NCBI GenBank assembly: GCA_012727935.1
Contig: JAAYGA010000168.1
Span: forward strand, 1 to 36,856
Length of the DNA stretch: 36,856 nucleotides
DNA from: Pseudomonadaceae bacterium
GTDB taxonomy: Bacteria > Pseudomonadota > Gammaproteobacteria > Pseudomonadales > Halomonadaceae
Direction of reading: 5' to 3'
How positions within the stretch are numbered: the stretch's first letter is position 1; each line of letters opens with the position of its first letter. The position numbers and the translations under genes are program-made. Under the pieces are notes generated by a model, which was given only the letters and a program-made list of their open reading frames with translations, searched no databases and was not told the origin of the DNA. This document shows, one piece after another, positions 3,163 to 25,297 of this stretch.

Positions 3163-4545
3163 TTACTTATTAGCTTTCTTTTGCTTACTTTTAATAAACC
3201 CTAGGTTTAAAAAGTGTTCTAGCGAATCATCGAGAATGTCTAACCAAGGCTCAGGTAATTCAGGCGCTAAGGTGTTGGTTAACGTAGAACGGTAGGCTTT
3301 TTCTCTAAAGCCCATAATGTCGGCCTGCTTATCTAGCTGCCATTGCTTGAGAATATCCCCTTGTTTTTCTACGGCAAATTCTGGGTAGTCGGTTGCGTTG
3401 GTTAAATCACGAATGTATTTGGCTTGAAAGTCGATATCGCCACAAACATTATTAACCTGTTCATATTCAGCCAACCACTTCTGCTCATCTGCTTCACGTT
3501 TAGCCAGTGTTGGTAGTTGCATTTTTTCTAAAATCACGTCACGCACATACCAAGCTTGGGCATCAAACATATTAAAAGTGAAGTACTGGTCTTGCATACC
3601 CAAATAAATTAACTGGGTATTTGGCTGCCAGAAAATGCCCTTATATAAATTGGCTGGGTATAGGCAATTGTGTGTTTGTAAGCGCAACTCATCAGGCAGG
3701 AAGGGGAAGTGAAATAAATAGCCTGTACACATAACTACCGCATCAAAACGCTTGCTTGTGCCATCTGAAAAATAAGCAACATCGCCTTCAAAGTGCGTTA
3801 AGAGTGGTTTTTCTTCAATACCTTCAGGCCAGTTATAACCCATGGCTTCAGAGCGGTAGCTAATGGTGACTGACTTAGAGCCATACTTATAACACTGAGT
3901 ACCTATGTCTTCTGCTGAATAGCTGCTGCCAACCAATAACAGGTCTTCACCTTTAAATTCTAGCGCATCACGGAAGTCATGGGCGTGCATTACACGGCCC
4001 GGAAACTCTTCTAACCCTTCAAAGTAAGGCATGTTTGGCGTAGAAAAGTGACCTGTAGCAACCACAACGTAATCAAACTCATTGGTTTCCTGCTCACCGG
4101 TCTTATGGTTCATAACCGTTACAGTAAACAGCTTGGTTTCATCATCAAAAGTTACCCAACGCACAGGGCATTCAAAACGTATGTATTTACGAATGTCTTG
4201 CTTATCAATGCGGCCCATAATGTAGTCTTTAAGCACTTCACGGGGCGGATAAGAAGGAATGGGCTGGCCAAAATGTTCCTCAAAAGAATAATCAGCAAAC
4301 TCTAAGCATTCTTTTGGGCCATTAGACCAAAGGTAACGGTACATGCTGCCATGAACAGGCTCGCCATTCCTATCTAACCCAGTGCGCCAAGTGTAATTCC
4401 ACATGCCGCCAATATCATTTTGCTTTTCATAGCAAATAACTTCAGGTAGGTTTTCGACACCGGCTAAACGAGCCGCTTCAAATGCACGCAATTGTGCTAA
4501 ACCACTAGGGCCTGCGCCTAAAATAGCAATTTTTTTCTTATTCAA
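3163..4545 (-). CDS. tmm: Flavin-containing monooxygenase, trimethylamine monooxygenase (Tmm)-like
   Basis: GAGPSG FAD motif, GSSYSAEDIG NADPH motif, VMCTGY motif; 460 aa, with overall resemblance to bacterial Tmm (ECLEFADYSFEEHFG, PSYPPREVL). Confidence 0.75.
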   Translation of the reverse strand: MNKKKIAILGAGPSGLAQLRAFEAARLAGVENLPEVICYEKQNDIGGMWNYTWRTGLDRNGEPVHGSMYRYLWSNGPKECLEFADYSFEEHFGQPIPSYPPREVLKDYIMGRIDKQDIRKYIRFECPVRWVTFDDETKLFTVTVMNHKTGEQETNEFDYVVVATGHFSTPNMPYFEGLEEFPGRVMHAHDFRDALEFKGEDLLLVGSSYSAEDIGTQCYKYGSKSVTISYRSEAMGYNWPEGIEEKPLLTHFEGDVAYFSDGTSKRFDAVVMCTGYLFHFPFLPDELRLQTHNCLYPANLYKGIFWQPNTQLIYLGMQDQYFTFNMFDAQAWYVRDVILEKMQLPTLAKREADEQKWLAEYEQVNNVCGDIDFQAKYIRDLTNATDYPEFAVEKQGDILKQWQLDKQADIMGFREKAYRSTLTNTLAPELPEPWLDILDDSLEHFLNLGFIKSKQKKANK

Positions 4546-18813: not shown

Positions 18814-20175
18814 TTAACTGGCTGAAACGGGTTTGCGGCGGCGTGGGTTACGTCTTTTACTGCCTGATTTTTTAACCGGAGAGCGCCCTAAAGAAGCAAT
18901 AAGCTTATGTTGCTCTTCTTCGCTGGCTTCTTGAAAGGCTGTCCACCAAGCAGCAGCCCCTTCGGTTGCTTCGCCCGCTATTTCACGTAACAGTAAAAAG
19001 TCATAGGCAGCACGAAAGCGCGGTGTTTGTAGCATTACCCAAGCTTTTTTACCATTACGCTGCGGTAGCTTCAGCTGCAAGTCCCATATTTCACGCATGG
19101 GAAAAGAAAAACGTTTAGGAATAGTAATGTGTTGATTTTGCCTTTGCAGCAGCCTGTTTCCTGCTTGCTGCATGGCAGGAAAAGCGGGAACACCATTATT
19201 TTGCAAATCATTAAAAATTTGCTCTAACCCTGGCCAAAGTAAAGCAGCATATAAAAATGCAGGCGTAACAGGGCGGCCTTCGTGAATACGAAGATCAGTA
19301 TTTATCATTGCCTGTTCAACCATTTTTAAAGCCGTTGGGTTAGTTTTAAAGGCTTCATGGCTGGCAGGAAATAAAAATGCAAATAAACCGTATTGACGCA
19401 ACAGCTGAAAAGTAGCTAAAGCATGTCCAGCTAGAAATAACTTAAGCACCTCATCAAACATACGCGCCGGTGCCACCTGCAATAACAGGTTAGCTTGTTC
19501 ACTTAACGGGGCTTCAGTGTTGGTTTCTAACTTAAAGTTTAGCTTTGCTGCAAAGCGCACGGCTCGCAACATGCGAACTGGGTCTTCGCGGTAACGGGTA
19601 ACAGGGTCACCAATTAAGCGCAAAGTTTGGTTTTTTAAATCATCTAAGCCACCAGTGTAATCATAAATGGCTTGGTCATTAATATTGTAGTAAAGCGCGT
19701 TAATAGTGAAGTCACGCCTTAAAGCATCTTCTTCAATACAACCCCAAACATTGTCACGCAACAACATGCCTTCTTCACTCTGCCGAAGGCGCTTGTCGGC
19801 CACTTCTTGAGTTTTACCTCTAAAGGTTGTCACTTCAATAATTTCACGCCCAAAACGTACGTGAACAATGCGAAAGCGGCGACCAATCATACGGGCATTA
19901 CGAAACAGCTCAGTGACTTCCTCTGGGGTAGCGTCGGTTGCTACATCGAAGTCTTTTGGGTTCTTGCCCAATATACGGTCACGAATACAACCACCCACTA
20001 GGTAAGCTTGGAAGCCACTCTTTTGTAAGCGGTAAAGGACTTTAAGTGCTCCTTCGTGTAGTTCGCTACGTGAAATAGGATGCTCTGAACGGGCTAATAG
20101 GCGTAGTTGCGGTGTTTTCACTAGTGCCTTTTTGTTCATGCGAGTTTTAAGGTAGCTGGTAATTCCTTTAATCAT
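18814..20175 (-). CDS. pcnB: Poly(A) polymerase I
   Basis: AYLVGGCIRDRILGKNPKDFDVATDATPEEVTELFRNARMIGRRFRIVHV, EDALRRDFTINALYYN. Start at 20175 (MIKGITSYLKTRMNKK) or 20139 preferred; the ORF-track start at 20319 would run through the sRNA terminator. Confidence 0.95.
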   Translation of the reverse strand: MIKGITSYLKTRMNKKALVKTPQLRLLARSEHPISRSELHEGALKVLYRLQKSGFQAYLVGGCIRDRILGKNPKDFDVATDATPEEVTELFRNARMIGRRFRIVHVRFGREIIEVTTFRGKTQEVADKRLRQSEEGMLLRDNVWGCIEEDALRRDFTINALYYNINDQAIYDYTGGLDDLKNQTLRLIGDPVTRYREDPVRMLRAVRFAAKLNFKLETNTEAPLSEQANLLLQVAPARMFDEVLKLFLAGHALATFQLLRQYGLFAFLFPASHEAFKTNPTALKMVEQAMINTDLRIHEGRPVTPAFLYAALLWPGLEQIFNDLQNNGVPAFPAMQQAGNRLLQRQNQHITIPKRFSFPMREIWDLQLKLPQRNGKKAWVMLQTPRFRAAYDFLLLREIAGEATEGAAAWWTAFQEASEEEQHKLIASLGRSPVKKSGSKRRNPRRRKPVSAS

Positions 20176-20257
20176 TTTGACCCATGGCGCAAAAGAAAGA
20201 TGCAGCAGTTTAACTGACCTGCGAGGTAGGGCAAAGGCTGAATAGCATAATAGTATA

Positions 20258-20294
20258 AAACAAAAAATGGGAAGGCTTGTGCCTTCCCATTTTT
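20258..20294 (-). terminator. Rho-independent terminator of the CrcZ-like RNA
   Basis: AAAAATGGGAAGGC (20263-20276), 4-nt loop, GCCTTCCCATTTTT (20281-20294); minus strand reads GCCTTCCCATTTTTTGTTTT. Confidence 0.92.
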
Positions 20295-20743
20295 GTCGAT
20301 TGATAGGTTGCGAATCCATTCTGCCTTTAGGGTGAAAGTTCTAGATCGCCCTGAACACGTACCACAGTCACCAAATCGCCAACTTATTATTATTTTTGTT
20401 TTTAATTGCGAGGGTTGACCATCTCGTATTCAAAACAATTTAGCCTCAGCTTGGACTTTTTCTAGGGTGCTTATTGTTGTTGTTCACCCTTTGGATGCAG
20501 TAGGCATTATTTTTGTTTTCGCCTTTTTACATCAGTTTTCGCTGAAGACCGGAGACCTTAGCTATTATTGTTGTTTTTAATGCTTTTAAGCTGCTTAGCC
20601 TTTTTTTGTTTTTATGTTGGCTAGTGTGCTGGTCGTTCACCAAGCTTCCTAATTATTCTTATTGTTGGGAGGCTGGTTCGGTCAGGCTCAGTATTGTTTT
20701 TGTTTTTTCTGAGTGGCTGACGCCGGTATTTTTGTTTTTCTTA
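20260..20743 (-). ncRNA. crcZ: CrcZ-like Hfq/Crc-sequestering small RNA
   Basis: Lies between cbrB and pcnB; sigma54 promoter at 20754-20769, perfect terminator at 20263-20294, and about eight A-rich motifs such as GAACAACAACAATAA, AAAAACAAAAATAATAATAA, CATTAAAAACAACAATAATA. Ends are estimates. Confidence 0.88.
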
Positions 20744-20753
20744 CTAAGTATTA

Positions 20754-20769
20754 TGCTGGATACGTGCCA
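20754..20769 (-). promoter_or_regulatory. Sigma54 (-24/-12) promoter of the CrcZ-like RNA
   Basis: Minus strand CT-TGGCAC-GTATC-CAGCA-T: GG and GC elements at exact sigma54 spacing. Confidence 0.85.
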
Positions 20770-20841: not shown

Positions 20842-20894
20842 GTGTTACCCCCTTTTCAGGCTTAAAACTGGTGTGTGGGTGTAACGGTAACACC
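20842..20894. promoter_or_regulatory. Candidate CbrB upstream activating sequences
   Basis: Quasi-palindrome GGTGTAAC-G-GTAACACC (20878-20894) and half-site GTGTTACC (20842-20849), about 75-125 bp upstream of the -24 element. Confidence 0.6.
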
Positions 20895-20913: not shown

Positions 20914-22356
20914 TCAACGTGCCGTGTTTGTTTTGCGTCTAGGAATGCCAAGTCGTTGGCGTCTTTCCCATAAGCATTTTCTGGAAATGCCTAGTTTTTT
21001 AGCCAGCTCTGTTTCGCTCAGCTGGTCTTCATTTTCTTGTACAAAGCGCACAAAATAATCTTCTAGTGAAAGGTCATCAGCAGGCAGGTGTGCTGGGTCT
21101 AAGTCTTCAGCAACTGCTGCTTTAAAGGGTTGTTGGGCGGTGTTGGCGCTAGAAACTGAATTGGCTGCTAAGCCAGTAAAGTTAACCTTTCTGGGTTGTT
21201 GAATGCTTTGAGGTAATTCTAAATCTTCAGCATGAAGTAGGGTGTCGTCGGCCAAAATAACCGCACGCTCAACCCTGTTTTCTAATTCACGCACGTTGCC
21301 CGGCCAAGAATAGGCTAATAGTGCATTGCGTGCTGATTTAGAAAAACGTGCCAGAGGTTTACCCAGTCGTTCACAGCTGGCTTTTAATAGGCTTTCAGCA
21401 ATCAGTAAAATGTCATCTTCACGTTCAGTTAGGCAGGGCAGCTCTAGTTCAATCACATTTAAGCGGTAATAAAGATCAAGACGAAACTTGCCTTGGTCTA
21501 CTAGGTTTTTAATGTCCCTGTGGGTTGCAGCAATAAGGCGAATGTCTACCTTTCTTGATTCAACAGAACCTAAACGCCGAATTTCACCTTCTTGCAGCAC
21601 CCTTAATAAACGCGCTTGGGCTTCAAGGGGCAGCTCGCCTATTTCATCAAGGAACAAACTGCCGCCGTCTGCGGCTTCAACTAAACCATTGCGGCTGGTA
21701 TTAGCGCCGGTAAATGCACCTTTTTCATGCCCAAACAATTCAGATTCTATTAGGGTTTCAGGAATAGCCGCACAATTCACACTAATTAAAGGCGCTTTGT
21801 GACGAGGGCTAAGGTTATGCAAAGCGCGTGCAACTAATTCTTTACCCGTTCCCGATTCACCTAAAATAAGCACCCGCGTATTAAAAGGGGCAATTTTTTT
21901 AATCTGCTGAAAAACCGCCTGCATTGCAGGGCTTTCACCAATCATGCCTTGCAAGCCAGTAGGTGTTGCTGCTAATTCGCTATTAGCTAAAGCTGGGGAA
22001 GCTTGTTGCTGGCGGTGCTGGTTAAGAATGTGGTTAACCGCAGAAAGCATTTCATCATGATCAAAAGGCTTAGCTATGTAATCTACAGCGCCTTGCTTCA
22101 TAGCGTCCACAGCAGAACGCAAGCTAGCGTAGCTGGTCATAATTAACACAGGTATTTCTTGGTTAATTAATACTGTACCCATTTCACCGGGTAGGCGTAG
22201 GTCGCTAATAATTAGATCAAAGCTTTGTGTTGCCAGTTCCTGACGTGCTTCAGGAACCGTACCTGCTTCAGTAATCTGAAAACCGTTGCGCTCTAACAAA
22301 CGTCTTAGTGCTGAACGAATAATGCCTTCATCTTCAACGATCAGTATTTTGCTCAT
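20914..22356 (-). CDS. cbrB: NtrC-family sigma54-dependent response regulator CbrB
   Basis: Receiver domain, AAA+ with GESGTGKE and the GAFTGA motif (EKGAFTGAN), Fis-type HTH; adjacent to cbrA and pcnB as in Pseudomonas. Confidence 0.93.
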
Positions 22357-25297
22357 TGTCGCTTGATGACTCCTGATAGGTTAGATCACTACTAGGTAGT
22401 GGAAAGCGGCAGCGAAAACAGCTACCGCTTTTAAATTCTGGGCTAGGGCTAAGAGCTTGAATTTGCCCACCGTGCTCTTCGACAATACTATAAACCAGCG
22501 CCAGTCCCAAACCTGTGCCTTCACCGGCTTGTTTTGTGGTGTAAAAAGGTTCAAACAAATGTTCTAAGTGTTGGGGTGAAATGCCCTGCCCATCGTCGTG
22601 TACTTCCAACAACACTTCCTGCCCTTGTTGGCGGCCAAGGCACAAGATTTTTCCACCCTCAACAGTGGCATCACAGGCATTAGCTATAAGGTTAACGAAA
22701 ATTTGCACTAGCCGTTGAGTATCGCCGGTAACATAAAGGTCTTCTGGGCAAGCATTTTCATACACCCTATTGCGGCCTTTGTGGCTAAGTGAAATTAAGC
22801 TGATGGATTCTTGTATTGCACCGCGCAGGTTAATCAGTTCAAACTTAAGGGTGTCGCTGTGCCGCCCCGCATGAGCAAAATTAACCAAAGATTGCACTAT
22901 GCTAGTAATGCGTTTAGTTAGTTGTAAAATTTGCTGGCTGGTTTCTTTAACAACTTCTGGCTCTTCAGCGTCGTAATAAAGGTTTTGAGCTAGCGAAGAA
23001 ATACCCGTTACAGGGTTACCTATTTCGTGGGCGACCCCTGCTGCTAAGCGGCCTATCGAAGCTAGGCGTTCGTTGTGCAGCAGTTCATTTTCTAATAACT
23101 TTAAGCTACTTTGGTCTTCAACCAGCAAAATGGTGCCGCCCATTAAAGTGGCTGGGTCGTCTTGCTGCGCCTTGTGCAAGCTTAACCAAGCTGTGCTGCC
23201 ATCGTTGTTTTGTAGAGGCTGGCGATAAACTTGCGAAGCTTCACCTTCTAAAAAACTATTCAGTAACTCGCCCCAAGGCGTTGGCAGGTGGCGAATTTTA
23301 GAGCCTATTGCCTGATCGCTGGCTAGGCCGGTTAGGTTTTCCATTGCACGGTTCCACAGCAACACTTCTTGGTCGCTGCCCAAAGTACAAATGCCAACAG
23401 GCAAATACATGAGTGTTTGGCGGTGGTGGCGGCGCAGTTTATCAAGTTCCCTTGCCATGCCGGTTAAGCGTGAACGGTAGTCTTCAAGGTGGCGTTCAAC
23501 GTGGTGAATGTCATTTTCACTGGGCTTATCTTGGCTTTGCCAAGGCAGATAACGGTCAACAATTTCCTGTGCAACAGCAGACCCCATTAACCCCGATAAA
23601 TTGGCTTGAATTTGACCACGCAGGCGGCGCAGCAGATAGGGCCTTGCATCGGCAGGGTCAATATTTAATTCAATTAGTGCGCGATTAACTTCCCTTTGCG
23701 CTGTTTCAGAGCCAAGTGGAATGCTGAGTAGGCGAATTAAATCGGCGCTGTCTTTGGCTTTCAACTGTAAACGTTTAGGGAAAAACAACGCATCCTGTGA
23801 ACAGGCTAAGGCACCTGCTTTCTCTTCTTCACTTATTTTGGTGAACAGCGACACAGTAATAAACAGCACAATATTGGCAGTGGTTGCTGCAAGGGTGATG
23901 TTGTGCCAATCGTCAATGCCTGTAAGCTGCAGTTTAATGCCAAACCCAGTAACCTGCTGAATGTTAAGTAGTAATGGAAAACCCAAGCCTACCCCCAGCA
24001 CTAAAAAGCCTGCTGCCAAGCCTACTAATAAGCCTTTACGGTTAGCAATGGGCCAGTATAAAAGTGCCAAAGTACCGGGCAAAAATTGCAGGGTGGCAAT
24101 AAAAGCAGACAAACCTAGCGTGGCCAGATCGTGTTCAATGCTAACCACTAGGTAAACAAGGTAGGCAATAAAAATTAATGAACCTATCAGCAAACGGCGC
24201 ATTCGTACCAGCCAAAAGTAAATATCAAAATCGGCAGGTGGTTGGTAAACGGCTAAAACTAAATGGTTAAGCACCATAGGTGCCAGTGCCAGCGTCATAA
24301 CAATAATGGTGCCGCTAGCCGCCGCTAAGCCAATAATAAAAGACACTAAACCCCAATAACCCCCCAATGAAAGGGTGGCATATTCAATAGGTAGGTTGCT
24401 GCCCAAGGCTTGGTGCGCCCAATAAATAACCGGCACAGGCAAAGCCAAGAGCAACAGGAAGATGGGCAGCATCCAGCTAGATTGCATCATGGCTTCTTCG
24501 GAAGGGTTTTCAGTAAAAATAATGTGAAAAATGTGCGGCATGGTTAGCGCCGTAGCAAAAAAGATTAGCAGCAGGGTGCGCCACTGGTTGTTTTCTAAAG
24601 GCTGCATGGCGGTGGTTAACGTGTCACTATTTTCGGTTAGCCAGTGTTCTAAACCGTCAAAGCTACCAAACACGCTGTAAAGGGTGAAGCCGCCTAAAGC
24701 TAAAAAAGCTACCAGCTTAACCAAAGATTCAAAAGCTATGGCAAATAACAGGCTTTCATGGCGTTCCCTTAAAGAAATGTGCCGCGCCCCAAATAAAATA
24801 GCAAACAGCGTAATAACCGCACAAAACACAAAGGCGAGGTGATAGGGCGAAGACTCATTGGTTAGTAGATAAATAACATCGCCAATGGCCTGAATTTGTA
24901 AGGCCAGCAGCGGCATACTGCCAAACAACAGCCCCAAGGTTACTAACATGCCAACCCAGCGGCTGCGGTAACGAAAGGCCAGTAGGTCGGCTAGGGAAGA
25001 CAGCTGATAAGTGCGAGCAAGGCGTAGCAAGGGCGAAAGCAATAGGGGTGCTAAAACAAAAATGCCAGCAATGCCAAGGTAATAGGTTAAATAGCCATAA
25101 CCATATTGATGCGCCAAGCCAAATGAGCCATAAAAAGCCCAAGCACTGGCATAAACACCCAGCGCCAATACATAAACTAAAGGATGCTTAACTAGCTTTT
25201 GTGGCAACCAGCCTTTTTCAACAACCCAAGCACAGGCAAAAAGTAAGGAAAGGTAGCCAACACCTAAGGCAAAAATTTGGGTAAGAGTGAAGCTCAT
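22334..25297 (-). CDS. cbrA: Sensor histidine kinase CbrA with N-terminal SLC5 sodium:solute-symporter-like domain
   Basis: 987 aa; ~13 TM SSS-like N-terminus, PAS, HisKA ([16 protein letters not shown]), HATPase ([28 protein letters not shown]). Confidence 0.95.

Follow-up and report, generated by a model that had tools for sequence, protein, structure and literature searches.

A predicted CrcZ-like small RNA gene with a conserved helical domain between cbrB and pcnB in the Halomonadaceae

In Pseudomonas aeruginosa, CrcZ is a 407 nt RNA with six A-rich stretches that titrates Hfq via its distal face (PMC4063720). The cbrAB-crcZ system has been described only in Pseudomonas and Azotobacter, with CbrAB regarded as unique to Pseudomonadaceae (PMC8871633) and termed exclusive to pseudomonads in another paper (PMC6296734). 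The CbrB site of P. putida crcZ consists of one forward and two reverse subsites with centres 20-25 bp apart (PMC6296734). Sponges of this kind, likewise A-rich, activated by CbrB and directed at Hfq/Crc, occur as second copies named CrcY or CrcX in P. putida, P. syringae and Azotobacter vinelandii, and CrcZ has also been described in A. vinelandii (PMC6292655), a member of the Pseudomonadaceae, whereas the genome considered here belongs to the Halomonadaceae. CbrA/CbrB transcripts have been reported from marine communities in a paper whose available passages do not mention the RNA (PMC5073097). A literature search, which left subscription papers mostly uncovered, returned no CrcZ work outside the Pseudomonadaceae and no experimental link of CrcZ or CbrB to Halomonas, Marinobacter, Cellvibrio or Oceanospirillales.

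The stretch of DNA analysed here (the window) comprises 36,856 nt of contig JAAYGA010000168.1 from assembly GCA_012727935.1 (2.76 Mb, 87.5% complete, 5.3% contaminated). Its family, f1 in the present sampling, corresponds to Halomonadaceae, as Halomonas maura (L007) was nested within it in a partial-PcnB tree. The gap between cbrB and pcnB contains a predicted sRNA gene on the minus strand, with a transcript of approximately 484 nt running from about 20743 to 20260 and a +1 position placed about 12 nt after the GC of the sigma54 element (Table 1). A sequence-only reading of this gap had proposed dense AAYAAYAA-type motifs and a sigma54-type promoter followed after about 484 nt by a terminator, all of which are present: the promoter element TGGCACGTATCCAGC is found at 20769-20755, the terminator stem at 20294-20263 has 14 pairs and a T tail, and there are four non-overlapping AAYAAYAA motifs in the gap compared with 0.5 expected, a number reached by none of 100 dinucleotide shuffles. 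That reading contained neither the CbrB half-sites, nor the conserved helical domain, nor the cause of the overlap between the RNA and the pcnB reading frame. Elsewhere in the window (3163-4545, minus strand), a gene previously remarked upon as Tmm-like was identified as a trimethylamine monooxygenase (NF058570, 752 bits, above the cut-off).

Table 1. Positions of the predicted sRNA gene, its control elements and its neighbours in the window
Feature	Coordinates	Strand	Description
pcnB, poly(A) polymerase	18814..20175	-	TIGR01942, 545 bits; start re-set to codon 49
Predicted CrcZ-like sRNA	20258..20743	-	Basis: promoter and terminator positions, fold, family-wide conservation
Intrinsic terminator	20263..20294	-	14 pairs, 4-nt loop, T-rich tail
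Conserved domain	20345..20439	-	15-bp helix ATTGTTTTGAATACG/CGTGTTCAGGGCGAT, inner stem of 6-8 bp
A-rich stretch 8	20383..20403	-	Within conserved helical domain
A-rich stretch 7, AACAACAACAATAAG	20470..20484	-	Loop of GGGUG/CACCC hairpin
A-rich stretch 6	20506..20517	-	Loop of GGC/GCC hairpin
A-rich stretch 5, AAAAACAACAATAATAGC	20561..20578	-	
A-rich stretch 4	20599..20613	-	Loop of UAGCC/GGCUA hairpin
A-rich stretch 3, AACAATAAGAATAAT	20652..20666	-	
A-rich stretch 2	20693..20710	-	Loop of CUCAG/CUGAG hairpin
A-rich stretch 1, AGTAAGAAAAACAAAAAT	20728..20745	-	5' end of RNA
sigma54 promoter element TGGCACGTATCCAGC	20755..20769	-	TGGCACG-N4-CAGC, GG-N10-GC spacing
CbrB half-site R, GTAACA	20843..20848	-	79 bp before sigma54 element
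CbrB half-site F, TGTTAC	20887..20892	-	123 bp before sigma54 element
cbrB, sigma54-dependent response regulator	20914..22356	-	Upstream of sRNA
cbrA, sensor kinase	22334..25297	-	PAS, HisKA and HATPase_c in C-terminal part

All partner proteins of the Pseudomonas system are encoded in the window genome. CbrB shares 57-62% identity with its counterparts in Pseudomonas, Halomonas and Cellvibrionaceae, and the first 591 residues of CbrA match a solved chain annotated as 'histidine kinase' (10ed_A, E 8.5e-185), a match read as an SLC5-type domain, consistent with CbrA as described in the literature. The Crc orthologue, an exonuclease-III-like protein encoded between rph and pyrE, has P. aeruginosa Crc (4jg3) as its best PDB match (E 1e-79), and strong Crc matches were obtained in every family genome searched. 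The residues of its ExoIII catalytic motifs appear altered (QDVR, GTWN), as in Crc. Hfq is encoded between genes identified by sequence inspection as miaA and hflX, with its distal-face region NGIKLQGQIESFDQ intact. The arrangement cbrA-cbrB-RNA-pcnB, followed by folK and panB and panC, is seen in the window, and the cbrA-cbrB-RNA-pcnB synteny is shared by most CbrB-containing relatives.

The predicted RNA is 41% A and contains eight stretches of at least four ARN repeats, and its fold has a predicted energy of -123.7 kcal/mol (z = -5.8 relative to shuffles), with hairpin loops holding most of the A-rich stretches. In all 19 RNAs tested, the A-rich motifs were predicted to be more often unpaired (0.72-0.94) than other A residues (0.51-0.76), the value for the motifs of the window RNA being 0.88, and the AAYAAYAA count exceeded all 100 shuffles in most of the gaps compared.

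The upstream region carries CbrB half-sites, searched with the consensus of PMC6296734, in a register that can be compared across families. Relative to the sigma54 element, TGTTAC lies at -124 and GTAACA at -103/-104 in Pseudomonas (L001) and L105, the corresponding positions in Gilvimarinus and a Cellvibrionaceae MAG are -123/-124 and -102, and those in the family of the window are -125 and -80. Set against the one forward and two reverse subsites of P. putida, these positions indicate that F1 and R2 were kept and the middle subsite R1 (-103) was lost in the family. Both half-sites were present at 49 of 51 family loci with CbrB and at none of the 23 without it, while the genome-wide F-R-sigma54 pattern was found in 99 of 151 family genomes and in none of those from seven CbrB-less genera. 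Most family genomes contained a single promoter of CbrB-type geometry. In one genome (G404) the pattern of the CbrB-type promoter recurred about 2.5 kb from its crcZ-like locus (L262, C16:264014-264145), and this additional site could be another CbrB target or a chance occurrence.

The locus is not a member of the Rfam CrcZ family (RF01675) as modelled. The covariance search that had been proposed as a check did not detect it: at gathering and relaxed thresholds the best fragment in the window scored 17.4 bits (E 0.023) against a cut-off of 95, and a genome-wide search with the same model gave no match. Positive-control loci from Pseudomonadaceae scored 272-350 bits (350 for Pseudomonas L001, 272 for L006 and 307 for L105). 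Across 296 genomes of the order, however, scores spanned the range on both sides of the cut-off, with f2 above it (101-111 bits), f37 (66-73), f22 (33-55) and f10 (45-49) below it, and G217, a genome of the window's own family, giving a hit of 22 bits (E 8e-4) that coincides with the locus. Three independent lines speak for orthology, namely synteny, promoter register and these intermediate families. The predicted RNA lies between cbrB and pcnB, has a sigma54 promoter preceded by two of the three CbrB subsites (F and R2) in the Pseudomonas register, contains eight ARN stretches of the Hfq distal-face type that are predicted to be mostly unpaired, ends at an intrinsic terminator and shares its genome with CbrA, CbrB, Crc and Hfq. 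These features support the CrcZ-like identity proposed from the sequence alone. It is highly likely that the gap encodes an orthologue of CrcZ in the form of a free-standing sRNA, approximately 484 nt long, that would be activated by CbrB and RpoN and would titrate Hfq/Crc.

The RNA shares with Pseudomonas CrcZ its position, sigma54 promoter, CbrB half-site register, terminator, length (about 400-480 nt) and number of A-rich stretches (six to eight), but differs in its sequence outside the A-rich motifs, which has diverged beyond the reach of the Rfam model, in the missing R1 subsite and in having, close to its 3' end, a conserved domain with a 15-bp helix that the Rfam model lacks. The earlier description as a complete CrcZ was apt in recognizing a CrcZ-like gene, but its wording concealed this structural difference, and the Halomonadaceae RNA is best read as a new structural variant of CrcZ. 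Unlike species with CrcY or CrcX, the family has the conserved core once per genome (at 0-1 mismatches, among the matches listed) and mostly a single CbrB-type promoter. We take the window locus to correspond to crcZ, rather than to crcY or crcX.

The 5' strand of the 15-bp helix is a 17-nt element, ATTGTTTTGAATACGAG (20439-20423), which pairs with a 3' strand of consensus CGTATTCAAGGCGAT; between the two strands lie the inner stem and an A-rich loop. The element was near-invariant, as 148 of the 151 family genomes carried it with no more than two mismatches. In a scan of the 296 order genomes at 0-1 mismatches, 12 of 12 f1 genomes had it; six other genomes matched sporadically, about as many as matched a reversed control pattern. 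Pairing was retained in 98.3% of cells over 52 distinct sequences, compared with 30-45% when the partner strand was slid. In the inner stem both strands had changed, one genus having U-A in place of G-C, and the outer helix was too invariant for covariation apart from U-A/U-G exchanges. The helix probably shapes or stabilises the RNA, and its degree of invariance, which exceeds the needs of pairing, suggests an added role. A covariance model of the helix core did not reach Pseudomonas CrcZ. The same model gave a weak match (E 0.25) in family f8 (L129:1858-2002; L129/L203, G043), where a possible counterpart of the domain, AUCGCUUUGGAUA/UAUCCAAAGCGAU, has changed bases that still pair.

Three other readings of the locus were weighed. 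A chance combination of A-rich intergenic sequence and a sigma54 match has some basis in the pattern TGGCACRNNNNNNGCW, which matches three times in the window against 0.49 expected, and such a match is weak evidence when taken alone; it becomes convincing through conservation, as the element occupies a fixed place relative to the upstream sites and the RNA core among relatives. Together with the shuffle tests, the recurrence of the core in nearly all family genomes, the retained pairing and the co-occurrence of upstream sites with CbrB, this conservation already refutes a chance origin, the probability of which is negligible. It is very improbable that the region, instead of encoding a separate RNA, serves pcnB as a long regulated 5' leader. 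Such a leader would fit the position directly upstream on the same strand and the overlap of the RNA 3' end with the pcnB reading frame as called (18814-20319, minus strand, ATG at 20319). That overlap, however, arises only from the first 48 codons, which are probably not translated, since PcnB matches in relatives mostly start near codon 43-49 of the called frame, and a strong terminator separates the RNA from pcnB. In three of 151 family genomes the RNA is kept without the 17-nt element. Two of these (G023 and G024) lack the core but have A-rich motifs and, also ahead of pcnB, a sigma54-type promoter. The third (G030) encodes cbrB and crc, and no RNA was found adjoining either cbrB or pcnB. 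The promoter pattern TGTTAC-N34..44-GTAACA-N60..85-TGGCAY alone located a site in this genome at C13:107185, and the corresponding locus (L261, C13:107185-107900) combines an intact CbrB-type promoter and its sigma54 element with ten overlapping AAYAAYAA motifs, a diverged core helix, TGAATACG/CGTATTC, and a terminator. It lies far from pcnB, flanked by ORFs that on inspection appear HemF-like and Sua5-like. That the promoter model predicted a previously unseen gene indicates that the RNA is an autonomous unit rather than a pcnB leader, and the leader was rejected on the terminator and this relocation.

A further possibility is that the sRNA shares its origin with CrcZ but has since taken on another main task: it would still bind Hfq, yet work chiefly through base-pairing or through a helix-bound protein rather than as a Crc/Hfq sponge. 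The failure of the Rfam model to recognize the locus speaks for this, as does the near-invariance of the 5' helix strand even though the U-A/U-G exchanges in the 3' strand show that pairing tolerates change. Against this, the A-rich stretches are predicted to be unpaired and are at least as numerous as in Pseudomonas, strong Crc matches occur in all family genomes searched, and genera g17 and g18 retain the A-rich motifs and a sigma54-type promoter without the core, all of which make a changed job improbable and favour the CrcZ-like sponge. Sequence comparison itself shows the gene, its promoter architecture, conservation and structure, and the presence of CbrA, CbrB, Crc and Hfq. By extrapolation from Pseudomonas as to the activation signal, the titration and the effect on target mRNAs, scarcity of preferred carbon would lead to phosphorylation of CbrB, which would bind the half-sites, some 80-125 bp ahead of the promoter element, and act together with sigma54-RNA polymerase to switch the sRNA on; the eight A-rich stretches, mostly in hairpin loops, would then bind the distal face of Hfq together with Crc, removing both from catabolic mRNAs and relieving catabolite repression.

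CbrB was absent genome-wide in the genomes searched of genera g3, g7, g9, g15, g16, g17 and g18, where the best hits (about 1e-87 to 1e-94) were no stronger than those given by other NtrC-type regulators, and no cbrB adjoined the RNA. These lineages (L176, L177, L211-L230) have retained the RNA and a sigma54 promoter but have lost the paired CbrB half-sites. In the partial-PcnB tree the losses of CbrAB may represent only one or two events, so that the locus counts are non-independent and amount to one or two independent comparisons rather than 74. A TGCACCA-like (NtrC-like) sequence appears about 105-145 bp upstream in these genera, in many promoters near -135 to -145, and suggests an activator swap. 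Mean scores in a scan for NtrC sites were higher at CbrB-less loci (9.2, against 7.35 when shuffled), but some high scores also came from loci with CbrB (mean 8.35, against 7.4 when shuffled), so the swap is put forward as a hypothesis. A more extended scenario, on balance doubtful, is that the helix constitutes a second functional module for protein or RNA docking and that, where CbrAB was lost, control of the RNA passed to a different sigma54 activator, possibly NtrC; the sponge would then have survived the loss of its activator and would today signal nitrogen status instead of carbon status.

Strong matches to CbrB-type regulators were found in most families sampled across the order. CrcZ-like gaps, in which the sigma54 score was 9 or higher and no more than one of 100 shuffles attained the AAYAAYAA count, were identified in ten further sampled families (f4, f5, f7, f13, f14, f17, f18, f19, f22 and f23), including f23, which is Pseudomonadaceae by Rfam score and tree placement, leaving about nine beyond the Pseudomonadaceae. 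Such gaps were also present in named Cellvibrionaceae such as Gilvimarinus, and in f10 (L204, L205, L206) a CrcZ-like RNA lies upstream of pcnB with cbrB located elsewhere, on another contig at least in G045. Divergence among these genes across the order is too great for end-to-end alignment. The earlier suggestion that CrcZ might extend outside Pseudomonas was correct and understated, as the gene occurs throughout the Halomonadaceae and reappears across the order. These sequence data contradict the exclusivity of CbrAB-CrcZ to Pseudomonadaceae.

Taken at the level of the organism, the RNA very probably soaks up the proteins that shut off the use of second-choice foods. The occurrence of cbrB, the RNA and Crc across Halomonadaceae, together with look-alike loci in about nine more families outside Pseudomonadaceae, would mean that this carbon-priority circuit arose before the order split up, and would predict Crc/Hfq-type catabolite repression in the halophiles used for the production of bioplastics and ectoine. 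Those lineages with the RNA and without CbrAB would provide a natural experiment on the role of the sponge in the absence of its known activator.
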